Assembly (NCBI GenBank): GCA_938082375.1
Contig: CALKCJ010000001.1
Span: 1-64,000, forward strand
Length of the DNA: 64,000 nt
DNA from: an uncultured Thermomicrobiaceae bacterium
Lineage (GTDB): Bacteria > Chloroflexota > Chloroflexia > Thermomicrobiales > Thermomicrobiaceae
Reading direction: 5' to 3'
Shown here: in pieces, positions 991 through 19,117 of the stretch
Position numbering within the stretch: the first letter of the stretch is position 1
How the letters are laid out: every line of letters starts with the position of its first letter
The notes under the pieces: generated by a model
Database searches by the model: none
The model's input: the letters and a program-made list of their open reading frames with translations, nothing else
What the model was told of the DNA's origin: nothing
Translations under genes and position numbers: made by a program

Positions 991-2961
991 ATGTCTGACA
1001 ACAAGTGGTTGCGCAACGGCTTTGTCTGGATGATTTTGATCATCGCCGTTGTCGCTGTGTGGTTCACCTTCGTCAACAGCGGGAGCAGCGGTCGCCGCAT
1101 CAACATGGCCGACGTGGCCGCCGACATCAAGGCCGGCAAGGTCGAGCGGCTGGTAATGACCGAGAACTCCAACGAGGTGCAAGTGCACTACGTCGGTTCG
1201 CAAGAGATCCGCACGACGACGCTGCCACCGAATACGAACATCTACGACGTACTGAAGGAATTCGGCATCCAGGCGCAAGACTTCGAGCTTCAGGTGAACG
1301 AAGCCAGCCAGTGGGGTAGCTGGTTGAGCGCCCTCACGTTCATCTTGCCGACGCTCTTCCTCATTGGCATCTTCGTCTTCATGATGCGCCAGGCTCAAGG
1401 GACGAACAATCAGGCCATGTCCTTCGGCAAGAGCCGGGCACGCGTCTTCACCAGCAACCGGCCCACGGTGACGTTTGACGATGTCGCCGGGGTTGAGGAG
1501 GCCAAGGAAGAGCTGGCCGAGATCGTGGAGTTCCTGAAGTACCCCGAGAAGTTCGCCTCGCTCGGGGCCCGTATCCCAAGAGGGGTGCTGCTCGTCGGGC
1601 CGCCGGGCACCGGCAAGACGCTGCTTTCCCGCGCGGTCGCCGGGGAGGCGGGCGTGCCGTTCTTCAGCATCAGCGGCTCCGAGTTCGTCGAGATGTTCGT
1701 CGGCGTCGGTGCCAGCCGCGTGCGCGACCTGTTCGATCAGGCCAAGCGCAACGCACCCTGCATTGTCTTCATCGACGAGATCGACGCGGTCGGCCGGCAG
1801 CGGGGGGCCGGGCTCGGCGGCAGCCACGACGAGCGCGAGCAGACCTTAAACCAGATCCTAGTCGAGATGGATGGCTTCGATAGCACGACCAACGTGATTG
1901 TCATCGCTGCCACAAACCGTCCCGACGTGCTCGATCCCGCGCTGCTACGGCCGGGTCGCTTCGACCGGCAGGTGGTGCTTGATCGACCAGATTTGAACGG
2001 CCGCCTACAGATCCTGAAAGTCCATACGCGCGGCAAGCCACTGGAGAGCGATGTGAGCCTCGAGGAGTTGGCCCGCCAGACGCCCGGCTTTTCCGGTGCC
2101 GACCTGGAGAACCTGGTCAACGAGGCCGCCATCCTGGCAGCCCGGCGCAACAAGAAGACGATCGGCCGACGGGAGCTGTATGAGGCCATCGACCGTGTCG
2201 TGGCCGGGCCGGAGCGGAAAAGTCGAGTGATCAGCGAGCGCGAAAAGCTGATGACGGCCTACCATGAGGCCGGGCACGCGCTCGTCGCGCGGATGCTGCC
2301 GCACGCCGATCCGGTGCACAAAGTGTCGATCGTGGCACGCGGGATGATGGGTGGGTACACCCGGGTGCTCCCCGAAGAGGATCGGTTCTTCTGGACAAAG
2401 AAGCAGTTCGAAGCGCAGCTCGCTGTCTTCATGGGCGGGCATGTGGCTGAGGAACTGGTCTTCCAAGAAGTCTCGACTGGCGCAGCGAACGATATCGAGC
2501 GGGCGACGAATCTCGCCCGCAGGATGGTGACCGAGTACGGCATGAGTAAGCGGCTGGGGCCACTCGCCTTCGGTAAGAAGGAGGAACTCATCTTCCTAGG
2601 CCGGGAGATCAGCGAGCAGCGCAACTACAGTGACCAGATCGCTTACGAGATCGATCAGGAGGTGCGCCAGCTCATTGAGGAGGCATATGAGCGCGCAAAG
2701 GATATCCTGCTCCAGCACATGGACAAGCTGGAGAAGATCGCCCTGCTGCTCGTCGAACGAGAGACGATCGAAGGAAGTGAGATCGAGGCGCTGTTCGATG
2801 AACCGCGGCCTCGTCCAGAACTCGTCGGCCCACCGCTGACACGGCCGGCCGCAGTCATCGCCGTGGAGCAGCGACAGGTAGGCCGAGACACTCAGGTCGC
2901 ACCGCCGCAGCCAGGTAATGCCGCTCCACCACCGCAGATCCGGCCACAGCCGGCTTCGTGA
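991..2961 (+). CDS. ftsH: ATP-dependent zinc metalloprotease FtsH
   Basis: This is a 656-residue membrane-anchored AAA+ protease that degrades misfolded membrane proteins and short-lived regulators. Two N-terminal membrane segments (about residues 10-28 and 108-130) flank a short extracytoplasmic domain. The AAA module has Walker A GPPGTGKT at 203-210 and Walker B around IVFIDEID. The zinc site HEAGH is at 425-429. The C-terminus is a proline-rich tail. The ATG at 991 is chosen over an in-frame GTG at 952 because GGCGGAGGA at 976-984 is a well-placed ribosome-binding site. In many bacteria ftsH follows tilS-hpt; here those lie about 42 kb away. The gene is intact. Confidence 0.97.
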
Positions 2962-3027
2962 GTCATGCCTGTGGTGGAACACGCGGCAGCTGACAGATCA
3001 CAGGTGGCCGCTCGTCGGCCCAGGGAA

Positions 3028-3063
3028 CACTAGCGCCGGTGGACTTGCCCACCGGCGCTAGTG
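3028..3063. terminator. Strong hairpin between convergent genes
   Basis: A perfect 15-bp inverted repeat (CACTAGCGCCGGTGG, 3028-3042, with 3049-3063) encloses a 6-base loop. It sits between the end of ftsH and the end of the convergent small gene, so it could end transcription from both sides. No T-tract follows on either strand. Confidence 0.7.
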
Positions 3064-3094
3064 GAGGTCGCCTGTTACAGCTATTCTATCGCGC

Positions 3095-3364
3095 TCACGC
3101 CTCCGGTGTCAGCGCCCCGCTTTCCTCGGACAGCAATACAAAGCAATCGATTGCCGCGACTTCGTCGAAGCTGTACCACCCCGCATCGAGTATGGGGCGG
3201 TAATCGTACTGCTGCCTGATCGCTTGGGCATCGCGAGCCGTTATGCGAACGAGACGGGCGCCACAACCCGGGCGGATGTAATAACGCCCTTCCCGATCGC
3301 GAAAGAGGAGGCTCTGCGGATAGTCGCCCCGGCGTCCGATAAGCTGATAGCTGCGGCTATCCAT
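3095..3364 (-). CDS. Small conserved hypothetical protein (89 aa)
   Basis: I do not recognise a named family. The chosen ATG at 3364 has a strong ribosome-binding site (GGGAGGAGGG) on the minus strand just upstream, which supports a real gene. The frame stays open further upstream, but that extension has no comparable signal and runs toward the tRNA. The protein begins MDSRSYQLIGRRGDYPQ and is soluble, with an RDREGRYYIRPG segment, an arginine-rich middle and an acidic C-terminus with aromatic residues. No membrane segment or cysteine motif is present. It lies between ftsH (convergent) and tRNA-Ala (upstream on the same strand). Confidence 0.6.
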   Translation of the reverse strand: MDSRSYQLIGRRGDYPQSLLFRDREGRYYIRPGCGARLVRITARDAQAIRQQYDYRPILDAGWYSFDEVAAIDCFVLLSEESGALTPEA

Positions 3365-3485
3365 GGGCTCCCTCCTCCCTCGGGGTTCCGCACAGGCGCA
3401 GGGAAACAACATACAGTACCTGCACCCTGTCCAGGGTAACCGCTTCGCGTAGCAGATCCCGGTGGAAACGGGGGCCAACGCTGGG

Positions 3486-3558
<73 letters not shown>

Positions 3559-3577
3559 ACGCGTTTGGCCGTTAGAG

Positions 3578-3607
3578 AGTATACGCCAGGCACGGACGCT
3601 TCGTCAA
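3578..3607 (-). promoter_or_regulatory. Sigma-70-type promoter of tRNA-Ala
   Basis: On the minus strand TTGACG (3602-3607) is followed after 18 bases by TATACT (3578-3583), 19 bases before the tRNA 5' end. The rest of the gap from here to 3839 shows no convincing gene. A short minus-strand frame there lacks a ribosome-binding site and family resemblance. Confidence 0.7.
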
Positions 3608-3839
3608 GAACGCACGGTAGACCACGCCGACCACGGTTCAAGGACCCTTCCCTATTGCCGCTCTCGGCACCTGCAAGGTAGCCCGCGAGATCCCTGGCCA
3701 CAAGCAGGCGGGTGTGGTCGGTGGCCTCGTCGTCAAGTGAGCCGGACTCGAACCTGTTGAGCGCCGCCACACCCGGCACTGGTACCGTGGACCGAGGGGT
3801 ACACGATTCTAAGGCGCTAGGCACCTGATCCAAGCGGTC

Positions 3840-4340
3840 TCAGCGAAAGGCCGGGATGGCGAGCAGGGTCACGAGCGCGGCGAGGCTGAGCCAACAGGCC
3901 AGAACCAAACCAATACCTACCCACCCGATGCCTGGCCCATCCGTAGCCCGGGCTTCCGCGGCCGCCTGGCACTCCGCGAAAACCCCCGGCGGGATCAGCC
4001 GGATCGCCAGCACCACGAGTAGCGGTACCAGAACGAGATCATCCAGGTGCCCGAGCACCGGGATGAAGTCCGGGATCAGATCGATCGGGCTGAGGACATA
4101 GGCGGCGATGCCCAGCGCCAAGACCCGAGCATACCACGGTACCCTCGGATCCCGATACGCCAGGTAGAGTGCAGCGGCATGCACTCGCAGCCGACGCGCA
4201 CACTGCCGCCAGCGCTCGAGCCTGCCCCGACGCAGACTTGTCCCTCCACCCAGTTCAAAGCGCGTTGTCGTAGCTGGTTGCCTCAGCCTCGTTAAATCCC
4301 GCCCTCCATGAGGCACACCTCGAAAGCCTGAGTTCACCAC
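3840..4340 (-). CDS. DUF1232 (YkvA-type) membrane protein
   Basis: The core contains the DUF1232 signature SPIDLIPDFIPVLG followed by LDD, with flanking hydrophobic segments, and a further membrane segment at the C-terminus. The function of this family is unknown. The start is uncertain. I place it at a GTG (4340) just after the stop of the MFS exporter gene, where TGAGG lies about 8 bases upstream, giving about 166 residues. A shorter start near the DUF1232 core is possible. The close spacing suggests co-transcription with the exporter and MarR genes upstream, although a role in drug export is not implied by the family. Confidence 0.7.
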   Translation of the reverse strand: MVNSGFRGVPHGGRDLTRLRQPATTTRFELGGGTSLRRGRLERWRQCARRLRVHAAALYLAYRDPRVPWYARVLALGIAAYVLSPIDLIPDFIPVLGHLDDLVLVPLLVVLAIRLIPPGVFAECQAAAEARATDGPGIGWVGIGLVLACWLSLAALVTLLAIPAFR

Positions 4341-4348
4341 CTTGCGCC

Positions 4349-6067
4349 TCAGTCGTCCAGGGTGTCGCCTCGTGCCCGCGACCGTTCGCGTCCAGCCACC
4401 GCTGGCTCTGTCGGTGCCGGCCCAACCTCGACGGCCGCGCTGACGGCCGTAGCCGCCCGCTGCGTCCGCCGGAGCGGGATCTCCGGGAGAGCGGCGGTGG
4501 CGAGCCACGCCAGCAACATAAAGGCTGCTCCAACCGCAAATAGGCCAGTAATGGCCGAGCTCAGGCTCAGACGCAGCGCGATCATTACTTGGTCGAAGAG
4601 CTGTTGACCTGCTGAGCCGAACTGCTCGAAGGCCTGCTGCATCCGCGCCATCGCCTCGGGCGACACCAGCGCCTGCGGGTTGCGCAGCAGGCCAAGCTGC
4701 TCTGGAGCCACACGCTGGCGAATTGGCTCAGGCAAGTTCACCGTAAAGGCGCTGGTAAAGCGATTTGTCAAGACGGATCCGAGGATGGCGGCTCCCAGCG
4801 TCCCCCCAATGGAGCGAAAGAAGACGAGGCCCGAGGTCACCTCCCCCAGCACCTGAGCCGGGAACGCATTCTGCACCACGATGGTGAAGAGGCTCATGGT
4901 CGTACCGATCCCCAGCCCGGTCACGACCATGTTCCGCACCACCTCGCCACCCGTACTCTGTGGCGTCATGCGCGACAGTAACACCATGCCTAGGGCCGCA
5001 AGGGCCACGCTGCCCATCGCCAGCACCTTGTAGCGGCCCGTGCGGGCCATGAGCTGCCCGCCGACGACGCTGCTGGCGACGAAGCCGAGCATCATCGGCG
5101 TCAACACGGCACCGGAGTTCGTCGCTGTGCGTCCCAGCACCCCCTGGATAAAGAGCGGTAGGTAAAGGATCGTCCCGAACATGCCGACAGCGATAAAGAA
5201 GCCAGCCAGCACCGAGAGGGTGTAGATCCGGTTGCGGAACAAGCGCGGGTTCACAATTGGCTCTGGTGCTCGCAGTTCGACCAGGAAGAAGACGCTGAGC
5301 ATCAGCGCGGCGAACGTGAGGAGCCCGACGATCTGCGGAGAACTCCACGCATACTCCGTACCCGCCCAAGACAGCGCGAGAAGCAGGGGCACGGTGCCGC
5401 CAAGCAGTAACGCGGCACCCAGGTAGTCGATGGTGTGTGCTCGGCGACTGAGTCGCCCTGGGATAGTAAGGCCGGCTGTCACCAGGGCCACGGCCCCGAC
5501 TGGCATGTTCACGTAAAAGACCCAGCGCCATCCTAAGTGGTCAGTAATCCAGCCGCCGAGTGTCGGGCCGACGATCGCCGTCACCCCCCAGACCCCCGCA
5601 AAGACCCCCTGCCACTTCCCTCGCTCAGCCGGCGGAAGGAGGTCACCAACAAGCGCAAGGGAGATTGGGAAGAGGGCTCCGGCACCCAGCCCCTGTACCG
5701 CGCGGAACACGATGAGCTGCGTCATGGTCTGAGCGAGTCCGGACAGCGCCGAACCGAGTAAGAAGACCCCCATGCCGAGGAGGAAGAAGATGCGTCGGCC
5801 GTAGATGTCGGACAGCTTGCCGTAGATTGGCACCGTCACCGTCGATGCGAGCATGTAGGCGGTAAACACCCACGCGTAGTGCTCAAGACCCCGGAGCTCT
5901 GCGATAATCCGCGGCATCGCGGTACCGACGACCGTCTGGTCGAGTGCCGCCAGCAGCATCCCGAGCAGGACACCGGCCAGCACCAGCCAGACACGTCGCT
6001 GCGTCACTCCATCGTCCGCCTCCGGTTGGCCAGCGCGGCGAATCAAGTGCGTCGCGTGCGTCGTCAT
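4349..6067 (-). CDS. MFS drug exporter, DHA2 (EmrB/QacA) family
   Basis: This 572-residue protein has the length and many hydrophobic segments of the 14-TM DHA2 proton antiporters. The N-terminal DQTVVGTAMPRI is the characteristic TM1 motif, and the loop motif GKLSDIYGRR follows. Such proteins export hydrophobic drugs or cations across the inner membrane. The ATG at 6067 overlaps the stop of the upstream marR gene in an ATGA junction and has a GAGGAGAGGG ribosome-binding site, so the two are translationally coupled. Regulation by that MarR protein is likely. The exact substrate cannot be told from sequence. Confidence 0.92.
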   Translation of the reverse strand: MTTHATHLIRRAGQPEADDGVTQRRVWLVLAGVLLGMLLAALDQTVVGTAMPRIIAELRGLEHYAWVFTAYMLASTVTVPIYGKLSDIYGRRIFFLLGMGVFLLGSALSGLAQTMTQLIVFRAVQGLGAGALFPISLALVGDLLPPAERGKWQGVFAGVWGVTAIVGPTLGGWITDHLGWRWVFYVNMPVGAVALVTAGLTIPGRLSRRAHTIDYLGAALLLGGTVPLLLALSWAGTEYAWSSPQIVGLLTFAALMLSVFFLVELRAPEPIVNPRLFRNRIYTLSVLAGFFIAVGMFGTILYLPLFIQGVLGRTATNSGAVLTPMMLGFVASSVVGGQLMARTGRYKVLAMGSVALAALGMVLLSRMTPQSTGGEVVRNMVVTGLGIGTTMSLFTIVVQNAFPAQVLGEVTSGLVFFRSIGGTLGAAILGSVLTNRFTSAFTVNLPEPIRQRVAPEQLGLLRNPQALVSPEAMARMQQAFEQFGSAGQQLFDQVMIALRLSLSSAITGLFAVGAAFMLLAWLATAALPEIPLRRTQRAATAVSAAVEVGPAPTEPAVAGRERSRARGDTLDD

Positions 6068-8820: not shown

Positions 8821-11781
8821 TCAATCAGCCGCAGCCTCCACCTTCTCTCTCCGGTCGGACGTCACCGGGGCCAAGCGCGCGGCGAGTACTTCGACCAGGT
8901 GAAGCGGTCGTCGCCGCGTGAAGTGCGCGATCTGCTCCCGGCAAGAGACGCCCGCCACCGCGATGACGACGTCCGGCGGTTGGCCGTCGACCTTCGGGAA
9001 CAGTCGCTCGGCACCGATCTTGCGAGAGATGTCGTAGTGCTCCACCTCGTATCCGAAGGAACCGGCCATACCGCAACAGCCAGCACCACTCTCTTCGACC
9101 GAGCAGCCCGACGCCTTCAGCACCGCGAGAGAGGGCGAGACACCGATCAACGCCTTCTGGTGGCAGTGCCCGTGGAACAGCACCTTCGGCCCCGGCTCTT
9201 CGCGCCAGGGGAGCGACAGCTCGCCCCGCTCGAGCGGCCTAGCCAAAAACTCGTCGATCATGAAGCTGTTCTCGGCCACGAATACCGCTTCCGGATGGCC
9301 CGGAAGAAGATCCAGGTACTCGTCGCGCAGGGTCAGGATGCAGCTCGGCTCGGTGCCCACGATGGGGATGCCGGCCCGGGCGTACGGTGCCAAAAGCTCC
9401 ACATTAACCCGCGCCAGCCGGCGCGCCCGCTCGACCAGCCCCTTCGACAGTAGCGGCCGGCCGCAGCAGACACGTCGCTCGACGATGGTGACGTTGTAAC
9501 CGGCGGCCTCGAGCACCGCCACCGCCGCGCGGCCGATTTCGGGATAGTTGTAGGTCGTGAATGTATCGTGGAAGTAGACGACCGGGCCACGCACCCCCTC
9601 TCCACGCTTGCTCGATCGAGTGCGGAACCAGCGGTCGAACGGCACCCGCGCGAAGCGCGGCAGATCGCGCTCGGGATGCACGCCGAGCACCCGCTTGCCA
9701 AGCCGTCCCAGCGGGCTACGGGCTGCCAAGTTGGCGAACGGAGCGACCCGCGAGCCGAGCTTGTTGATCAGATGGATATTGCCAAACGCCAGAGCACGCA
9801 GTGGCGTGCCGTGAGCATGATAGTAGTGTGCCAGGAACTCAGTCTTGATCTTCGCCATGTCGACACTGGACGGGCACTCAGTCTTGCAGGCCTTACAGGA
9901 AAGACAGAGATCGAGCACCGCATAGGTGCGGGGATCGGTGAAGTGCTCCGGCCGGAGAACCCGGCCAGCCAACGCCGCCCGCAGGGCATTCGCCCGCGCA
10001 CGTGTCGTATCCCGCTCGTCCCGCGTGGCCATATAGGATGGGCACATGGTTCCGACGCCGAGCTTGCGACAGACGCCGGCCCCGTTGCACATCTCGATCG
10101 CCCGCGCAAAGCCACCGTCGCGCTCGAAGCTCAGGTGCGTCCGGATATCTCTGGTGCGATAGTCCGGCCCGTAGCGCAGGTTTTGATCCAGCGGCGGGCA
10201 ATCGACGATCTTCCCCGGGTTCATCAGCCCGTCCGGGTCGAAAGCACCTTTGAGCTCCTTCATGCAGCGGTACAGCGTTGGGCCGAACAGTCGCTCGTTC
10301 AGCTCGCCACGCGCCAGCCCATCACCGTGCTCGCCGCTCATCACGCCGCCGAAACGGAGAGCCAGCTCCAGCGCTCCCTCAGTCAGCGCTCTCATGGTCC
10401 GCACACCGCCGGACGTCTTAAGGTTCACGAGTGGACGAACGTGCAGGCAGCCAGCACTCGCGTGCGCGTAGAACGCCGCGGTTGTGCCGTGCTCGCTCAC
10501 CAGCCGTAGGATCTCACGCACGTACTCAGCCAGGTGTTCGACCGGCACCGAGACGTCTTCGATGCACGCGATCGGCTTGGCATCGCCGCGCATGCTCATC
10601 AAGAGCCCCTGGCCAGCCTTGCGCACCGACCAGACGTCTGCCTGGCGCGCCGGATCGAAGATCGGGATCGGATCCTGTACGACGCCTTGGCGCGCTAAGT
10701 GCTGCTGGAGCCGCTCGACCTTCCCCTTCAGCTCCGCCTCGGTCTCGCCGTAAAACTCGACCGTCAAGATGGCCTGAGGCTCACCCTGGATGAAGGCGAT
10801 TTGAGACGCAAAAGCAGGCTGCTTCCGCGTCAGTGAGAGTAGCACTCCGTCCATCAGTTCCACGGCCGACGGTTCGCACTCGAGAATCGACGGCACGGCT
10901 TCCATCGACCGTACCAAGTCGTCGAACTGGAGCAGTACCAGCGCGGTGCGACTCGGGCGTGGCACGAGGTTCAACGTGTACTCGAGGCCGAAGGCGAGTG
11001 TACCCTCAGAGCTGGCCAGCAGCCGCGCGACGTTAAAGTCCTCTCGCAGCAGCTCCTTGAGGCCATAGCCGCTGGCCCGGCGCCAGTGACGCGGGTACTC
11101 ACGCTCGATCGCCTCCGCATAGCGCTCACGCAGGGAGATGAGGTCACGGTAAAGCTGACCTTCACGGGTCGAGCGTTGTGCCCGGGCTGCCAGCTCGTCG
11201 GGCCTGAGCGACTGGAAGATGATCTCGGTTCCGTCCGAGAGGATCGTGTGCGCCGCGATGACATGGTCAGAGGCCATGCCGTACAGGATGGAGTGCGAGC
11301 CCGAGGCGTTGTTGCCGATCGCCCCGCCGATGGTGGCGCGGTCGGCACTGGCCGGATCCGGGCCGAACATGAGACCGTACTTGCGCAGCTTGGCATTGAG
11401 CTGGTTGACCACAATCCCCGGCTGGACGCGGGCGACCCGCGCGGCCGGGTCGACTTCGAGGAGCTGGTTCAGGTACTTGGAGGTGTCGATGACGAGGGCG
11501 CGCCCGACGGCCTGGCCGGCGAGGCTGCTGCCGCCGCCACGCGGCAGGATCGGGGTCTGGTACTTGGCCGCGAGCTCGATCGTCCAGCGGACGTCGTCGT
11601 AGGTCTTCGGGATAACCACACCGAGCGGCTCGATCTGATAGTTCGAGGCGTCGGTGCTGTACAGCATGCGGCTGTAGAGGTCGAACCGCACCTCACCCTC
11701 GAGACGCCAACGTAGTTCCCGCTCCAGCTCTCCAAGGGTTGCTTCAGGAACGGTTCCCGGCTCATGTCGTCTTCTATTCAT
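8821..11781 (-). CDS. FAD-linked oxidase / Fe-S (GlcD-GlcF-like) fusion
   Basis: This 986-residue protein joins two modules. The first (about residues 1-530) is an FAD-binding oxidase of the glycolate/D-lactate dehydrogenase type, with ILPRGGGSSLAGQAVG and IGGAIGNNASGSHS as the flavin-binding segments. Next come iron-sulfur cysteines (CNGAGVC, then CLSCKACKTECP). The last part has paired CCG-domain motifs (CCGRPLLSKG, GCCGMAGSFG) like GlcF and heterodisulfide reductase subunits. Such enzymes oxidise 2-hydroxy acids and pass electrons to the quinone pool. The substrate cannot be told. It has no partner subunits nearby, consistent with a self-contained enzyme. Domain order and length match known single-chain homologues. 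Confidence 0.9.
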   Translation of the reverse strand: MNRRRHEPGTVPEATLGELERELRWRLEGEVRFDLYSRMLYSTDASNYQIEPLGVVIPKTYDDVRWTIELAAKYQTPILPRGGGSSLAGQAVGRALVIDTSKYLNQLLEVDPAARVARVQPGIVVNQLNAKLRKYGLMFGPDPASADRATIGGAIGNNASGSHSILYGMASDHVIAAHTILSDGTEIIFQSLRPDELAARAQRSTREGQLYRDLISLRERYAEAIEREYPRHWRRASGYGLKELLREDFNVARLLASSEGTLAFGLEYTLNLVPRPSRTALVLLQFDDLVRSMEAVPSILECEPSAVELMDGVLLSLTRKQPAFASQIAFIQGEPQAILTVEFYGETEAELKGKVERLQQHLARQGVVQDPIPIFDPARQADVWSVRKAGQGLLMSMRGDAKPIACIEDVSVPVEHLAEYVREILRLVSEHGTTAAFYAHASAGCLHVRPLVNLKTSGGVRTMRALTEGALELALRFGGVMSGEHGDGLARGELNERLFGPTLYRCMKELKGAFDPDGLMNPGKIVDCPPLDQNLRYGPDYRTRDIRTHLSFERDGGFARAIEMCNGAGVCRKLGVGTMCPSYMATRDERDTTRARANALRAALAGRVLRPEHFTDPRTYAVLDLCLSCKACKTECPSSVDMAKIKTEFLAHYYHAHGTPLRALAFGNIHLINKLGSRVAPFANLAARSPLGRLGKRVLGVHPERDLPRFARVPFDRWFRTRSSKRGEGVRGPVVYFHDTFTTYNYPEIGRAAVAVLEAAGYNVTIVERRVCCGRPLLSKGLVERARRLARVNVELLAPYARAGIPIVGTEPSCILTLRDEYLDLLPGHPEAVFVAENSFMIDEFLARPLERGELSLPWREEPGPKVLFHGHCHQKALIGVSPSLAVLKASGCSVEESGAGCCGMAGSFGYEVEHYDISRKIGAERLFPKVDGQPPDVVIAVAGVSCREQIAHFTRRRPLHLVEVLAARLAPVTSDRREKVEAAAD

Positions 11782-11916: not shown

Positions 11917-12873
11917 CTACTCAGCAAAAGCGTCGACATCAGGGTCATCCAGGCGCCAAAACTGGGTGGGCGGCTCAAACCCTCGCTCAACCAGAGCCTG
12001 AATCGTCTCGAGGATGACGGAATCCGGAGTCGATGCCCCAGCGCTAAGCCCGACCGTCTGCACCCCCTCGAACCACTCGGAACGCAACTCCTGGACCCGC
12101 TCAATCTGATAACTCGGCACGCCACACGCGCGACCGACTTCCACGAGCCGCGCAGTGTTCGAGCTCTTACGTCCGCCAATGACGAGAATAAGATCGACCT
12201 GATCTGCGAGTTTCCGCAGTGCCTCCTGTCGTTCCCACGTCGGCTGGCAGATGGTGTTTACCACCCGGAGTTCCCCACCGTGCGGCAGAACCATCCCGGC
12301 AAGACCCTCAGCGAAGGATAGAAATGCCTCCGTCTGCTTCGTTGTCTGTGATATCAAGGCTACCTTGCGCGGCGGACTTTGCCCCTCACCTCCTCTGGCG
12401 ACCGTCCAAGGCAGATCGGCCGCCCGCTTCGCGACAACTGCGCGCGTAGTGTCAGCCCATTCGAGAATGCCGCGAACTTCCGGATGATCGCGGTCCCCGA
12501 AGAGCACCAAGAAGTAACCCTCACGAACTAACCGCTCCGCCAGTCTCTGCACTTTCATCACCAATGGGCAAGTGGTGTCTACCACCCCAAGCCCTAACGA
12601 CATAGCCTGGCGCACTCTCGAGGGACCGGCGCCGTGCGCGGTGATCGCCACCCACTGGAAACCACCGGCATGGGCATCGTCGATCGAGTCGACCGGTTCA
12701 ATGCCATACATCTGGAGTTCCTGGACAACGTGTGGGTTGTGGATAATATCGCCCAAGGCCGCAATCCGGCCACCCTGCCGCGATGCCTGTTGCACGATCT
12801 CCAGAGCACGGCGCACACCCCAGCAGAATCCCATCACCTCCGCGAGGACAATCCGACGTTGCCCTGATGACAT
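11917..12873 (-). CDS. ispH: 4-hydroxy-3-methylbut-2-enyl diphosphate reductase
   Basis: IspH carries out the last step of the MEP pathway, reducing HMBPP to IPP and DMAPP with a [4Fe-4S] cluster. The three cluster cysteines are in GFCWGV near the N-terminus, TTCPLV, and NTICQPTWERQ. The motifs IIHNPHVV, ITAHG, HPEVRG and SAGASTPDS are also present. I use the ATG at 12873 (318 residues); a GTG at 12912, inside the end of crtI, gives 331 residues and cannot be excluded. It is the last gene of the carotenoid operon, overlapping or abutting crtI, which fits a role in supplying isoprenoid precursors for pigment. Confidence 0.93.
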   Translation of the reverse strand: MSSGQRRIVLAEVMGFCWGVRRALEIVQQASRQGGRIAALGDIIHNPHVVQELQMYGIEPVDSIDDAHAGGFQWVAITAHGAGPSRVRQAMSLGLGVVDTTCPLVMKVQRLAERLVREGYFLVLFGDRDHPEVRGILEWADTTRAVVAKRAADLPWTVARGGEGQSPPRKVALISQTTKQTEAFLSFAEGLAGMVLPHGGELRVVNTICQPTWERQEALRKLADQVDLILVIGGRKSSNTARLVEVGRACGVPSYQIERVQELRSEWFEGVQTVGLSAGASTPDSVILETIQALVERGFEPPTQFWRLDDPDVDAFAE

Positions 12874-12893
12874 TGCCCGCTCAGTAGCACCTG

Positions 12894-14456
12894 TTACCGC
12901 TGGGCTAACCACCGTTCCCCCTTACGTTGAGTTACTTCGATCGGCAGATGTCCTACCGACAATTCCACTGTTCTACGAGAGCGCGATATATCGTCCAAGA
13001 CCAGTCGAGACGTGATTCGCGCCGAGAGGAGCACGCCAGGAATACCCGCACCCGGATGCGTTCCGGCACCAACCAGATACAGTCCTGGGACCGCTCCCCG
13101 ATTATGTGGGCGAAAGTAAGCCGATTGCGCCAGCACCGGTTCGAGCGAGAAGGCCGCCCCCAACTGGGCACCGTGTTGCTCTAGAAAATCTCGCGGCGTC
13201 TTTTCAGCAATTACGTGGGCGGTGTCGATTCCCTCCAACCCATGCAGATGGCACAGAGTCGTTACCACTCGCTCGCGAAAACGCTCTGTCTCCTCAGGTG
13301 ACCACCGGTCACCATGTCCTAAATGGGGAACCGGCGTCAGCGAGTAAAGACTATCGGCCCCCGGTGGCGCAAAAGAAGGATCTGTCCGCGCTGGTGCGTG
13401 AAGATAGAAAGCAAGCTCTGCGAGCGTGCCGTCTCCGTCAAAGAGTTCGTGAAGATGAGCTTCATAGTCTACAGGCATAAAAATTGTATGGTGTCGGAGC
13501 AGCGGATGACGGCTTGGTGCAGCCAGGTACAGCAGATAACAGCTCATGGAGTAGTAAGCTTGGCGAAGCCGCCACCGCCAAAGCCGGGCACCTGCGGCAG
13601 CTGGAAGCAGACGAAGGTAGGTGGTCGCGACGTCGGCGTTCGAGACCACAGCGTGAGCGCGCAGCTCCTCGCCCCCGGCCAGGTGTACGCCGCAGACGCC
13701 CTCTCCGGACAGCACGAGCCGCTCGACCAGCGCCCCGTAGCGGATCTCACCGCCGAGCGCGCCGAACAGTCGCTCCAAGGCCTCAACGACACGCCCCATC
13801 CCACCGACGGCAAAATAGACCCCTTCCTGGCGCTCGAGATACGGGATCATACTGTAGATGGCACTAGCACGAAGCGGATTCCCACCAATAAAAAGTGGGT
13901 GAAACGAGAAGACCATTCGAAGGGATGGGTGCGTGAAGTAGCGCGAGACAAACCGATAGACACTCTCGTGCGCCCGTAATTGCAGGAGCCGGGGGACGAT
14001 CTTTACGAAGTCTCGCAACTGTTCAAAGGGTTGTCCGGCCAGTTCCCGAAACGCGCGCTGGTAGATTTCGCGGGTAGCCGCAAGGAAGTCGCGATATCCC
14101 TGGACATCTCGCTCGGAGAAGCGAGCGATCTCTGCCTCGTCTCGCTCACTATCGCCCCAATAGTCAAACCATCGCCCATCGGCAAATACAATGCGGTAGT
14201 ACGGTTCCAACCGCACGAGCGTCAGGTCATCCTCCAGTGCCCGGTTCGCACATGCCCACAGCTCGCGGAGGAGGCTCGGCGCCGTAATCAAGGTTGGCCC
14301 GGTATCGAAGCGGAATCCATCGTGCTCCAGCACCCCCGCCCGTCCCCCAGGCATTTGACTGCGCTCAACGATGCACACCTGCAAACCCGCAGTCTGCAGG
14401 CGAACGGCGCAGGCCAGCCCGCCGAGTCCCGCCCCAATGACGATCACATCGTACAT
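12894..14456 (-). CDS. crtI: CrtI-type phytoene desaturase
   Basis: The 520-residue flavoprotein begins with the dinucleotide-binding motif GAGLGGLACAVRL and continues ERSQMPGGRAG. It ends with the CrtI signature VGAGTHPGAGIPGVLLS. CrtI enzymes desaturate phytoene stepwise to neurosporene, lycopene or 3,4-didehydrolycopene. It is the only desaturase-like gene in the operon, so it probably does the main desaturation. A CrtD-like role (3,4-desaturation of a hydroxylated carotenoid) is an alternative given the neighbouring cruF. The start lies 8 bases after the stop of the CruF-acyltransferase gene. Confidence 0.9.
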   Translation of the reverse strand: MYDVIVIGAGLGGLACAVRLQTAGLQVCIVERSQMPGGRAGVLEHDGFRFDTGPTLITAPSLLRELWACANRALEDDLTLVRLEPYYRIVFADGRWFDYWGDSERDEAEIARFSERDVQGYRDFLAATREIYQRAFRELAGQPFEQLRDFVKIVPRLLQLRAHESVYRFVSRYFTHPSLRMVFSFHPLFIGGNPLRASAIYSMIPYLERQEGVYFAVGGMGRVVEALERLFGALGGEIRYGALVERLVLSGEGVCGVHLAGGEELRAHAVVSNADVATTYLRLLPAAAGARLWRWRLRQAYYSMSCYLLYLAAPSRHPLLRHHTIFMPVDYEAHLHELFDGDGTLAELAFYLHAPARTDPSFAPPGADSLYSLTPVPHLGHGDRWSPEETERFRERVVTTLCHLHGLEGIDTAHVIAEKTPRDFLEQHGAQLGAAFSLEPVLAQSAYFRPHNRGAVPGLYLVGAGTHPGAGIPGVLLSARITSRLVLDDISRSRRTVELSVGHLPIEVTQRKGERWLAQR

Positions 14457-14464
14457 CGACGACC

Positions 14465-16033
14465 TTACCCTCGGTAGGCACCGGGCATTGCGTAGTCCGC
14501 TGCCCCTACTGACCCTGAAAGGATCTGCACCTCGGATTCGAGGCTAGCCAAAGCCGCTCCCAAGTCGGTCGTTTCGGAAACCAGGAACGGCGTGCCCAAC
14601 TGGACGAGAATCTGTTTCTGGCCGGAAGTATGGTAGGCAATCCCAACCGGGATCACCGAAATCGGACGGCCAGACCGATGAGCAGCCTGGTGACACAACC
14701 AAACGACCCCGCGCTGGAACCCATGCCCCAGGCGAGCCCGCACTCCAGGGGTATGGGGGTCAATCACCGGGAAACCTTCTGGGAAAACCACGACAACTTC
14801 CCCGTCCTCCAGAAGGCGCAGCGCCTCGCGCAGTCCCCGCACCAGGTATCGCGGGAGTTCGTTCTGACAGTAGACGGCTGGCGGATCCGCAAGACGAAAA
14901 CGTTGCGGACGCAGAATGACCGGCCAGCCGGCCCACCTACACAGCTGCTCCATGACAAACCGTTGCGACGGCGTTCGTACCCAGTCGAGCGCAACAAGAA
15001 AGCGGAGCGGCCGCGGCGACAGGGCCATCAGAGCACAGGCGTCCAAGAGGTGGTGCTCATGACGCACCGCCAGCACCACCGGGCCGCTTCCCGGGAGCCG
15101 CTCGAGGTTTATGGGCCGGAGCGTCCAGCCACGCAGGAACGCACCTGCTCCGATGCGAAGCACGGCATCAACGACTCGGCCCCACCCGCGATGCCGTCTC
15201 ACCCGGATGCTCGGACGCTGTCGCCTCCCCCGAAGCACCCACATGGCGGGCAAAACGCCGGCAACGAAGCCGAGCCCAATCGGCAACCACAACCCGACAC
15301 TCACACAGACAGCCATCCCAAAGGCCAGATTCGCCAGATAGACCATCACTGGAAAGCCAGGCATTTCGTCCCGCGGCGGTTCCCCCCGCCAAAGCACGCG
15401 GCTTAAGCCCATGAAAGCGAGTGCAGTAACGGCCCACCCAGCGAAGTTCTGGATCGGCATTCCCTCATACGGCCCCGATTCGTGCCAAATCCAGAAGCGC
15501 GCCGAAAGGCTTTCGTGGGCCATCGCGGGGTCAAGCACCAAGTCCCAGACCACCAATAGCCAGACGCCAGCCGCAAGCCGAGCGGCAGTTCCTGCTCGCC
15601 CGTACACGCGCTGAAACAACGCGGCCCCAATGAGATAAGTCACCAAGCCCATATAGAACCAGGAAAGCGGGATCGTGAAGGGCACACGGTCAGCGATTTT
15701 CGCGCCGAGCCCGGAGGTATAGCTATAGTTCCCGAAGGGCCAGCCAGTTCCCGTGCCGATGAGTTCTGAGGCCAGCGAGATTGACGTAGCGCAGACGAAG
15801 AAGATCACTGTCCGCCTGGCCCCCAGCTTCGTGATCCCGTACGCTAACACCGCAACGGTTGCAAAAACAATCTGCAGCACACCCGCGTAGCGGGTGCCAA
15901 AGGCATAGACATTCACTGCCACTTGACTGTGCGCCCATAGGTCTGGACGCCGCATGGCAATCGTCAGTCCAGCCAAACCAAACACCATCATCACCAGATG
16001 CGCCGCAAATGCCCATCGCGCAAGCCGGTTCAT
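14465..16033 (-). CDS. CruF-like carotenoid hydratase fused to PlsC-like acyltransferase
   Basis: The N-terminal half (about residues 1-265) is a polytopic membrane domain of the carotenoid biosynthesis family that includes CruF, the 1',2'-hydratase. Typical stretches are ELIGTGTGWPFGNYSYT, VPFTIPLSWFYMG and WDLVLDPAMAHE. The C-terminal half (about 295-522) is a lysophospholipid-acyltransferase-like domain with RHEHHLLDA, a His-x5-Asp variant of the usual His-x4-Asp, and FPEGFP. I infer it hydrates the carotenoid end and may acylate the attached sugar. The ATG at 16033 overlaps the upstream stop (TGATG) and has GGGAGGCAGG before it. Length is 522 residues. The acyl acceptor is not proven. Confidence 0.82.
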   Translation of the reverse strand: MNRLARWAFAAHLVMMVFGLAGLTIAMRRPDLWAHSQVAVNVYAFGTRYAGVLQIVFATVAVLAYGITKLGARRTVIFFVCATSISLASELIGTGTGWPFGNYSYTSGLGAKIADRVPFTIPLSWFYMGLVTYLIGAALFQRVYGRAGTAARLAAGVWLLVVWDLVLDPAMAHESLSARFWIWHESGPYEGMPIQNFAGWAVTALAFMGLSRVLWRGEPPRDEMPGFPVMVYLANLAFGMAVCVSVGLWLPIGLGFVAGVLPAMWVLRGRRQRPSIRVRRHRGWGRVVDAVLRIGAGAFLRGWTLRPINLERLPGSGPVVLAVRHEHHLLDACALMALSPRPLRFLVALDWVRTPSQRFVMEQLCRWAGWPVILRPQRFRLADPPAVYCQNELPRYLVRGLREALRLLEDGEVVVVFPEGFPVIDPHTPGVRARLGHGFQRGVVWLCHQAAHRSGRPISVIPVGIAYHTSGQKQILVQLGTPFLVSETTDLGAALASLESEVQILSGSVGAADYAMPGAYRG

Positions 16034-17184
16034 CACCTGCCTCCCACCATGAGTGTCCTGCCGCGCCACAGATAACGACGTTGCCATGCGCATCTCCAGA
16101 TTCGCAGGATGACCGGCAGGTCAACGAGCGGCGACAGCCAGTACCACCATCGGCGCCGCGGATAGGCACGACGGGTGCCGACGAGGACGCCAACCCGCAC
16201 CGCTAGGAGCAGAAGGTTGATTCCGACAAGCCGGCGGGGCAGGTCACGCCGGGCCAACCCCAGCAGGCTGAGCGGTATGGGCAACGCTTGGGCGAACAGC
16301 AGCGACAAAAGCTGCCACACCGTGCGCGCTTGTGATTGCCCATCAGCGAGCGCCAGAGAGCGGGGCCAGCCGTTCCACACTTCGCGCCCATCTCGGTACA
16401 TCTTGACCGTGACTGCACCATCCGCCTCAAAGAAGCCAAACAGTTGACCACTCTGGACTACCCGCCGAGCGAGCGCCACATCCTCCGCATTGGCTTCGGC
16501 AACCACGGCAAACCCACCGAGATGATCGAGCACCTGGTGGTGCAAAAGCATTACCTGGCCATTGGCCCATACGTCGCTCGGGCGACTAGCCAGAGAACCC
16601 GGGACACCAAATCGATACACAAGCGTGGTGAGCATCGACGGATGAAGCAGCCAACTCAGCCAATCCCCACCCAGTGACTGGAGAGGGGCAATGCTAAGCG
16701 CCCGGAGGTTGGCACGCCGCGCAGTCTCGAGCAGCATGCGGATAAGATCGGATGAAGGGCGGACATCGGCATCCATAGTCAGTACCCACACCGAAGCGCT
16801 CGAACGGGATCGCCAACCGATCTCTAGGCCCCAGGCTTTCCCATTCCAGCCGGGGGGGATTGGCGCTGCCGAGATAAGCCGCACCCTCCCGTCACGAGCC
16901 GTGTAAGCCTGGACGAGCTGAGCGGTGCGGTCAGTCGAGCCACCGTCCACCACCAGGATCTCAGCCACTTCTTCACCGCTGCGGATCAGTCCCTCCAGAC
17001 AGGGCGCGAGCCGAGCCTGTTCGTTGAGCACGGGCACGATCACTGAGACCGCGCCAGCACTTGGTGCGAGCTGCCCCCTGGCGCAACTCTGCCGATTCAC
17101 CGCGCTGCGTATAAGGCGCGAGACGACGGCAAGCAGGGCGACGCACTGACACCAAAGGAGCACCGACCACAGGTGCCGTATCAC
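16033..17184 (-). CDS. CruG-like family 2 glycosyltransferase
   Basis: This 383-residue membrane glycosyltransferase has an N-terminal membrane segment and a GT2 fold. Motifs are VSVIVPVLNEQARL, VVDGGSTDRTAQL, a DxD-type MDADVRP, and an acceptor region AEANAEDVALARRV. Two or more C-terminal hydrophobic segments follow. The arrangement matches CruG-type enzymes that glycosylate hydroxylated carotenoids, and the next gene encodes CruF. Its GTG start at 17184 overlaps the hydrolase stop (GTGA), and its own stop overlaps the next start (TGATG). The sugar donor and the exact carotenoid are unknown. Confidence 0.85.
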   Translation of the reverse strand: MIRHLWSVLLWCQCVALLAVVSRLIRSAVNRQSCARGQLAPSAGAVSVIVPVLNEQARLAPCLEGLIRSGEEVAEILVVDGGSTDRTAQLVQAYTARDGRVRLISAAPIPPGWNGKAWGLEIGWRSRSSASVWVLTMDADVRPSSDLIRMLLETARRANLRALSIAPLQSLGGDWLSWLLHPSMLTTLVYRFGVPGSLASRPSDVWANGQVMLLHHQVLDHLGGFAVVAEANAEDVALARRVVQSGQLFGFFEADGAVTVKMYRDGREVWNGWPRSLALADGQSQARTVWQLLSLLFAQALPIPLSLLGLARRDLPRRLVGINLLLLAVRVGVLVGTRRAYPRRRWWYWLSPLVDLPVILRIWRCAWQRRYLWRGRTLMVGGR

Positions 17185-18011
17185 GCCAGTCCTCCCGCGA
17201 TGAACTGACCAATGAGGCGAAAGGTCAGTTCTGCACTCGGGTGATCGGTTCGCACGAGCTGGTGGCCCCCGGGCACCTCCACGAGGGCGACGCGCCCGGC
17301 CAAGGTTGCGACCAGTTGCCGCGTGGTCCAGCGAGGTACTGTTTGGTCGTCACATCCTTGGATGACGAGCACTGGACACTGAACTCGACGGGCTGCCGCG
17401 TTGGCATACTTCCCCGTTTTGCGCAGCTCGTCGAGGACAGCAAGCGGTAAGCGCACGTTTCGCAGCGCCATTTGGACCGCAGGATCGTCGAGATCCAGCC
17501 CCGGATCGATCGCCTGCAGAATCTGGCGCGTCTGCGAATCCCGAAAGTCAGCATTTGCAAAGGGCCGAAACTCCTTGCGAAAGCGCCGGATCACAGGCAG
17601 GAGTGGCACTCGCCAATCGCCCGGCAGTAACCGAGTGAACGGCGCTACCAGCACGAGTTGATCCGGAGGCGACAGCGCCGCAACGTGCAAAGCGATCGCC
17701 GCCCCCATGGAAAAACCCAGTAAGACGACTGGGCCGCTTGAACTCGTACGCACTTCTCGCCAGCGTTCCAGGGCAAAAGCGAACCACTCATGTGCCCTGA
17801 CCGACGGCAATCGCGCGAGTTCGCTCCCGAAACCGGGAAGCAGCGGTACCGACACTGCAGCACCCAGCCCAGCAAGATGCTTCGCAAGAGGGCGGAGCTC
17901 CGCTGGCGTGCCCATAAACCCGTGCAGCGCCATCACCACGGGCTTCGTCCCAGGTAAGGAAAAGGCATGGTGCTCCGCCCCGCTAAAGAGGCGCATGGCA
18001 AGGGTCGTCAT
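17181..18011 (-). CDS. Alpha/beta hydrolase in the carotenoid operon
   Basis: The 276-residue protein has the esterase/monoacylglycerol lipase pattern. The oxyanion region is LHGFMGTPAE, the nucleophile elbow GFSMGAA holds the serine, the aspartate is in GCDDQTVP and the histidine is in PGGHQLV. The ATG at 18011 overlaps the crtB stop (ATGA), and the stop overlaps the next GTG, so it is firmly part of the operon. Its role is unknown. It could remodel or release acyl groups on carotenoid esters, or act on lipids generally. The association with an acyltransferase domain two genes on makes the first idea attractive but unproven. Confidence 0.85.
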   Translation of the reverse strand: MTTLAMRLFSGAEHHAFSLPGTKPVVMALHGFMGTPAELRPLAKHLAGLGAAVSVPLLPGFGSELARLPSVRAHEWFAFALERWREVRTSSSGPVVLLGFSMGAAIALHVAALSPPDQLVLVAPFTRLLPGDWRVPLLPVIRRFRKEFRPFANADFRDSQTRQILQAIDPGLDLDDPAVQMALRNVRLPLAVLDELRKTGKYANAAARRVQCPVLVIQGCDDQTVPRWTTRQLVATLAGRVALVEVPGGHQLVRTDHPSAELTFRLIGQFIAGGLA

Positions 18012-19000
18012 GATCCCTCTCCACTGAGGGACGCAGCGACTGCCAGTGAGATCCACAGTGCGCGGCCGAAGTCGAACACCTTTTGGTCGATGGTCGTCTT
18101 GGCTCGGAGTCGCAGCGTATCGTAGTCGTTGCGCTCGACCTGTCGCAAGATACGACGATAGGCATGTGCGGCAGTACGGATCCCGATTTGCGTTTCAAGG
18201 GGAAGGAGGTCGATGCCGTCAGCCGCCCGCTCGTAGTACGTATCAGCACGGATGATCTCGAACTGCATGAGCATCCGGAAGCGCTGATCAGGTCCGCGGC
18301 CAGCCGCCAGCAAACTGTACAAATGCTCAGGCAAGCAATTGAAGCGGCGCAGATCTTCGAGCGGCAGGTAGAGCCGACCCCTTCGTAGGTCCTCGCCGAC
18401 GTCGCGGATGATGTTCGTGAGCTGCATAGCGATGCCGAGATCACGAGCAGCCTGGAGTGCAGCCGAGGAGTTCACACCCAGCATGGGTGCCATCGCAAGC
18501 CCAACGGTCGACGCCACACAGTAGCAATAGCGTAGGAGCGCAGCGGAGTCAGTGATCGGCCGATGGTCGAGGTCGATGAAGAGTCCTTCCAGAAACTCAA
18601 TAAAGTAGCGGGGATCCAGCCGATACGACGCGATCAGGGCGGCAAGGTCGCTGCCAAGAGGTTCTCGCGGCGCAGCACCAGGGCGCACAGATCCGAACCA
18701 GCGACGCCAGGCCAGGAGTTCGGCCCGAACCTCGCTGTGCTGCGCTGCTGGAGCTTCGTCGACAAGGTCGTCGAGCGTACGGAAGAAGGTGTAGAGGACG
18801 GCAATTTGGTAACGAAGTGAAGGAGGGAGGAACAGGCTGGCGAAGGAGAAGGTGCGGGCATGAGTGCGCATGACGCGAGCATACCAGCGTATGGCACTGT
18901 CCTGGGTAAACACTGAATCTCCCGCGGTGCCCCGGATCGACCGACGGCGCCAGCGCAGCGTTGGGAACCCGAACCTCGCAAGCTGACCAGTGCGGGACAT
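18008..19000 (-). CDS. crtB: Phytoene/squalene synthase
   Basis: This enzyme condenses two geranylgeranyl diphosphates to phytoene, the first committed carotenoid step. The first aspartate-rich motif is TFFRTLDDLVDE and the second is TNIIRDVGEDLRRGRLYLP. I use ATG 19000, which follows AGGAG closely and gives 330 residues; an ATG at 18874 would remove an N-terminal extension. It is the promoter-proximal gene of the leftward operon crtB, hydrolase, glycosyltransferase, CruF-acyltransferase, crtI, ispH. It could in principle be a squalene-type synthase, but the operon argues for phytoene. Confidence 0.92.
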   Translation of the reverse strand: MSRTGQLARFGFPTLRWRRRSIRGTAGDSVFTQDSAIRWYARVMRTHARTFSFASLFLPPSLRYQIAVLYTFFRTLDDLVDEAPAAQHSEVRAELLAWRRWFGSVRPGAAPREPLGSDLAALIASYRLDPRYFIEFLEGLFIDLDHRPITDSAALLRYCYCVASTVGLAMAPMLGVNSSAALQAARDLGIAMQLTNIIRDVGEDLRRGRLYLPLEDLRRFNCLPEHLYSLLAAGRGPDQRFRMLMQFEIIRADTYYERAADGIDLLPLETQIGIRTAAHAYRRILRQVERNDYDTLRLRAKTTIDQKVFDFGRALWISLAVAASLSGEGS

Positions 19001-19054
19001 CACTCCTGACCTAACATTTGGTAAGTGCAACCAGCACCCCAATGCCACTGTCTT

Positions 19055-19068
19055 AAGCTTGCAAGCTT
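19055..19068. promoter_or_regulatory. 14-bp palindrome in the crt leader, possible operator
   Basis: AAGCTTGCAAGCTT is a perfect palindrome lying 54 bases upstream of the crtB start and about 20 bases downstream of the -10 below, where a repressor could block transcription. Confidence 0.4.
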
Positions 19069-19087
19069 CAGTCCTCCGTTGGTTCCC

Positions 19088-19117
19088 AGTATACCCGCAC
19101 CTATTCTCCGAAGGCAA
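19088..19117 (-). promoter_or_regulatory. Probable promoter of the carotenoid operon
   Basis: On the minus strand TTGCCT (19112-19117) and TATACT (19088-19093) are 18 bases apart. The leader to crtB would be about 80 bases and contains the palindrome at 19055-19068. Confidence 0.55.

Follow-up and report, generated by a model that had tools for sequence, protein, structure and literature searches.

A predicted carotenoid end-group hydratase fused to a PlsC-fold acyltransferase in the carotenoid cluster of a Thermomicrobiaceae bacterium

The locus lies in a window of 64,000 nucleotides (positions 1 to 64,000 of contig CALKCJ010000001.1, assembly GCA_938082375.1) from an uncultured Thermomicrobiaceae bacterium, whose genome belongs to the same genus-level group as that of Thermalbibacter and to one family with Thermomicrobium. 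It encodes, on the minus strand, a cluster in the order TetR-family regulator, crtB, alpha/beta hydrolase, CruG/CruC-like GT2 glycosyltransferase, a protein combining a CruF-type and an acyltransferase domain, crtI, ispH, and an FAD/Fe-S ORF. The features are as follows, with counterparts in the cluster of the pink hot-spring bacterium Thermomicrobium roseum designated by the trd numbers of Wu et al. 2009 (PMC2615216).

19257..19835, minus strand: TetR-family regulator upstream of the cluster, in a position conserved in Thermomicrobiaceae (profile)
18008..19117, minus strand: phytoene synthase, crtB (SQS_PSY, E = 1e-68)
17181..18056, minus strand: alpha/beta hydrolase, a conserved member of the cluster that occupies the place of hypothetical trd_1160 (profile)
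16033..17184, minus strand: GT2 glycosyltransferase of CruG/CruC-like type, corresponding to T. roseum cruC trd_1161 (profiles, conserved locus, PMC2615216)
14465..16033, minus strand: CruF-acyltransferase fusion, 522 aa from the ATG at 16033 (ORF and profiles)
14465-16093, minus strand: mechanically called ORF of the fusion, 542 aa, uninterrupted
15248..15883, minus strand: CruF-type membrane domain, PF04240 Caroten_synth (Pfam; eight helices in the model of the CruF region)
14639..15109, minus strand: PlsC-fold acyltransferase domain, PF01553 (Pfam and fold match to 5kym)
15041..15064, minus strand: RHEHHLLD, the His-x5-Asp catalytic motif with H345, H347, and D351 (H, H, and D invariant in 27 domains)
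14774..14785, minus strand: FPEG motif, aa 437-440, with FPE invariant and G or A as the fourth residue in the subfamily (alignment)
12894..14456, minus strand: CrtI-family carotenoid desaturase (TIGR02734, 523 bits)
11917..12912, minus strand: ispH/lytB, HMBPP reductase, for isoprenoid precursor supply (profiles)
8821..11781, minus strand: large FAD/Fe-S glycolate-oxidase-like ORF at the position of trd_1165 (sequence reading; kept in relatives)

Residues are numbered here in the 542-aa form of the fusion (minus 20 for the 522-aa form). The ATG at 16033, which a preceding sequence-only reading had chosen over the mechanical start at 16093, is the better start, because the sequence GGGAGG lies 6 nt upstream of it, it overlaps the stop codon of the GT2 gene as TGATG, and the ORF of the Thermalbibacter longus homolog (67% identical) begins at the same residue. 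That reading had also taken the protein to join a CruF-like membrane domain to a PlsC-like domain, and both Pfam families indeed score above their gathering cut-offs, Caroten_synth over aa 71-282 (E = 5.9e-62, 209.7 bits, cut-off 25) and Acyltransferase PF01553 over aa 329-485 (E = 4e-7, 30.3 bits, cut-off 23). A single ORF thus carries a CruF-type domain followed by an acyltransferase domain, the arrangement of T. roseum trd_1162. CruF models are matched almost over their full length by the N-terminal domain; the fusion differs from CruF in its additional acyltransferase domain and in its score, which for its best NCBIfam model (CruF, NF045693) is 252 bits against an equivalog cut-off of 400, so that we call this part CruF-type rather than a curated CruF equivalog. 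The glycosyltransferase encoded directly upstream, earlier described as CruG-like, likewise has CruG (NF045692) as its best NCBIfam model, at 296 bits and below the equivalog cut-off of 600.

The architecture, the genomic context, and the proposed role of such a fusion are already known since Wu et al. 2009. The T. roseum cluster trd_1158-trd_1167 contains crtB (trd_1159), the hypothetical trd_1160, cruC (trd_1161), trd_1162, crtI (trd_1163), and a glycolate oxidase paralog (trd_1165); trd_1162 was described as a 1,1'-hydroxylase whose C-terminal acyltransferase domain presumably acylates the sugar added by CruC, with two separate proteins taking its place in Salinibacter ruber (PMC2615216). 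The acylated carotenoid glycosides of T. roseum rest on HPLC and saponification evidence, in that the very hydrophobic native pigments yielded upon saponification a polar glycoside resembling oscillaxanthin (PMC2615216). Glycosyl fatty-acyl carotenoids have been associated with other Chloroflexota in which cruF, cruC, and cruD are separate genes (PMC3368417, PMC4155588), and our literature search recovered nothing on the fusion beyond Wu et al. The protein studied here shares with trd_1162 the two-domain architecture, the cluster, the gene order (crtB, hypothetical, GT, fusion, crtI), and the proposed roles, and it comes from another genus of the same family, the Thermomicrobium relatives being about 44-49% identical to it. 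As the architecture, context, and role were published in 2009, our observation is essentially a rediscovery in a related genus and of low novelty. It provides independent comparative support for the 2009 proposal that the first and the last end-group steps reside in one Thermomicrobia protein, to which it adds mainly a lengthened HxHHxxD motif and natural split homologs; these, along with two relatives that lack the pathway, supply handles for testing the proposal.

As reported for T. roseum (PMC2615216), the fusion gene is situated between the glycosyltransferase gene and crtI, with crtB in the same cluster. The same cluster order was recovered in Thermalbibacter (L031), in Thermomicrobium relatives (L032 and L034), and at a further locus of the family (L061). 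A search of the genome for CrtI paralogs found one distant match (27% identity), and a search for the PF05834 lycopene-cyclase family found short or weak stretches only, one of them inside CrtI, and no convincing cyclase of that type. Given that none has been reported in T. roseum either, the substrate is probably acyclic. The alpha/beta hydrolase (17181-18056) is kept between crtB and the glycosyltransferase gene in Thermomicrobiaceae, and a relative of it adjoins split genes at locus L050. Its T. roseum counterpart trd_1160 was among the candidates of Wu et al. for the missing 2,2'-hydroxylation (PMC2615216), a role for which the hydrolase seems an unlikely candidate.

To place the fusion in a wider context, we examined 400 sampled Chloroflexota genomes, 121 of which matched the query. 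At least 19 of the 400 carry both domains in a single ORF, a recurrence that argues against an assembly artifact. Within the family, 14 of 21 genomes matched, with the gene split over two contigs in two cases (G403 and G410). G126 and G407, two near-complete genomes of relatives that do not have the fusion, contain neither PF04240 nor a gene of the SQS_PSY squalene/phytoene synthase family, and as all three are missing together, the pathway is absent from them as a unit. Elsewhere, the domains are encoded by adjacent separate genes in the order GT2-CruF-acyltransferase (L050, L052, and L054), or the acyltransferase gene directly follows that for GT2 with no adjoining CruF (L067 and L026). Arrangements of this sort point to a place for the acyltransferase at the glycosylation end of the pathway. 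Close to the split genes at L050 is also an ORF (2612-4882) with a molybdopterin-binding oxidoreductase domain, the N terminus of which gives a weak lycopene-cyclase-like PF18916 match just below the cut-off.

The AlphaFold2 model of the fusion, built with 34 sequences, has a mean pLDDT of 87.5 and a pTM of 0.60, the latter making the relative placement of its two domains uncertain. Whereas a sequence search of the PDB with the whole protein gave only a weak PlsC match, a profile of the acyltransferase domain recovered Thermotoga maritima PlsC (PDB code 5kym; E = 9e-6), and the C-terminal part of the model matched the same structure with a Z score of 17.9, followed by plant GPAT (14.6), mycobacterial PatA (12.8), and LpxM (10.2). 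PatA is the mycobacterial PIM acyltransferase, which acylates a mannose. The last membrane helix of the fusion continues into an arginine-rich linker, which by the positive-inside rule suggests that the acyltransferase domain lies on the cytosolic face. The CruF region modeled alone attains a pLDDT of 93 and a pTM of 0.92. In a separate comparison, the model of the CruF core (15212-16069 of the window) matched the mycobacterial Insig homolog MvINS (PDB codes 4xu4 and 4xu6) with a Z score of 8.3 at 3.1-3.2 Å over 136-138 of 189 residues, the sole match covering most of a target, the next one having a Z score of 6.6 over 76 residues. As the match is one between helical bundles, it is suggestive, not conclusive, of a fold shared by carotenoid hydratases and Insig.

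The acyltransferase domain contains, as the sequence-only reading had pointed out, both an FPEG motif (aa 437-440) and a His-x5-Asp variant (R344-H-E-H-H-L-L-D351). With PlsC 5kym it has the fold and the FPEG motif in common; it differs in being joined to CruF, in its genomic context, and in having HxHHxxD where 5kym has HX4D. The genome's own PlsC displays the canonical HX4D form (ANHLHNAD), and the motif of the fused domain is longer by one residue, as it is in all 27 aligned domains, fused and unfused, each of which has [RQH]HxH[HYN]xxD followed by FPE[GA]. A search of six genomes of the same class with a profile of the subfamily found only distant acyltransferases, none with HxHHxxD and most with HX4D. 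The His-x5-Asp form is thus a hallmark of the subfamily rather than a sign of decay. The invariance of H345, H347, D351, R395, and F-P-E across the 27 domains is as expected for an active enzyme.

Taking these lines of evidence together, we consider it probable, from comparative sequence analysis, that one protein hydrates a carotenoid end group and later acylates the sugar that GT2 has added to it, the product being a glycoside fatty-acyl ester. The CruF-type domain would carry out 1,2-hydration of one or both psi ends of lycopene, or of a desaturated derivative, to give a 1-hydroxyl; the CruG/CruC-like GT2 would then place a sugar on an end-group hydroxyl; and the PlsC-fold domain would acylate that sugar with a fatty acid, the donor probably being acyl-ACP or acyl-CoA, so that the product would be a carotenoid glycoside fatty-acyl ester such as has been reported from T. 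roseum. The two activities, the order of the steps, the acyl donor, the attachment site, and the sugar are as we infer them. For CruD of Chlorobaculum, Chloroflexus, and Salinibacter, which is a separate protein, acylation of a carotenoid glycoside has likewise been proposed. In favor of this function we count the presence of both domains, their folds and motifs, the conservation of the cluster, the split loci, the separate phospholipid acyltransferases of the genome, the joint absence of fusion, PF04240, and SQS_PSY from G126 and G407, and the published Chloroflexota with separate cruF, cruC, and cruD; against it stand the lengthening of HX4D by one residue, the CruF and CruG matches below the equivalog cut-offs, and the stand-alone members of the subfamily. 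The operon route of hydroxylation, glycosylation, and acylation predicted earlier is therefore supported by domains and context, as well as by the published reading of trd_1162 and the pigment chemistry of T. roseum.

A different acceptor is the alternative that survives best, unlikely as we hold it to be: the domain would acylate another lipid peculiar to these bacteria, for example a 1,2-diol or a different glycolipid, while a different enzyme would acylate the carotenoid. Long-chain 1,2-diols make up the membranes of T. roseum (PMC2615216), and some genomes without a CruF match contain stand-alone members of the subfamily, but the fused domain sits inside the carotenoid cluster and its relatives pair with a CruG-like GT2 even where CruF is not adjacent. 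Slightly less probable again is that an ordinary lysophosphatidate acyltransferase was fused to CruF by chance and serves glycerolipid synthesis. In its favor, the domain has the Pfam family and the fold of PlsC; however, the genome encodes separate PlsC, PlsY, and PlsX, so that glycerolipid synthesis does not depend on the fused domain, and its own canonical PlsC scores 111.9 bits against 32.9 for the fused domain. A very long branch separates that PlsC in the tree from the entire subfamily, fused or unfused; further, the catalytic motifs differ, and the phytoene synthase family is missing as well from the near-complete relatives that have no fusion. An action on glycerolipids only, which the sequence-only reading had named as the finding that would speak against its route, is accordingly made less likely by the separate PlsX, PlsY, and PlsC. 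That the domain is inactive, a mere membrane- or partner-binding extension of CruF, is very improbable, for although His-x5-Asp replaces HX4D, the altered motif, FPE, and other polar positions are invariant in all 27 domains, whether fused or not, and this, together with the existence of stand-alone copies, speaks for catalysis having been retained.

Beyond the preferred assignment to carotenoid glycosides, we see an evenly balanced case for a distinct PlsC-fold subfamily, marked by HxHHxxD and devoted to glycosylated terpenoid lipids, that was fused to or parted from CruF repeatedly within Chloroflexota. The trees do not sort fused from split forms, which intermingle; they force at least three label changes for the acyltransferase part and one for the CruF part. 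We also considered a single origin of the fusion, which these trees do not show, though neither do they decide for repeated fusion or fission, since three changes can amount to one gain and two losses.

Additional members of the subfamily were observed away from such clusters. Stand-alone HxHHxxD acyltransferases (L062 1634-2380, L063 3492-4205, and L057 7047-8105) have no carotenoid genes seen alongside, and the genomes of the first two (G025 and G035, respectively), both incomplete, yielded no CruF/PF04240 match. The subfamily is therefore not strictly linked to carotenoids and may serve other glycolipids as well. Finally, large-genome Chloroflexota possess a second fused CruF-acyltransferase paralog (L064 6648-8219, L065 7070-8668, L015, L017, L020, and L022), which is about 33-35% identical and carries the motif RHFHYFYD; at the two loci examined (L064 and L065), it is found near other GT2 genes and does not adjoin crtB or crtI.
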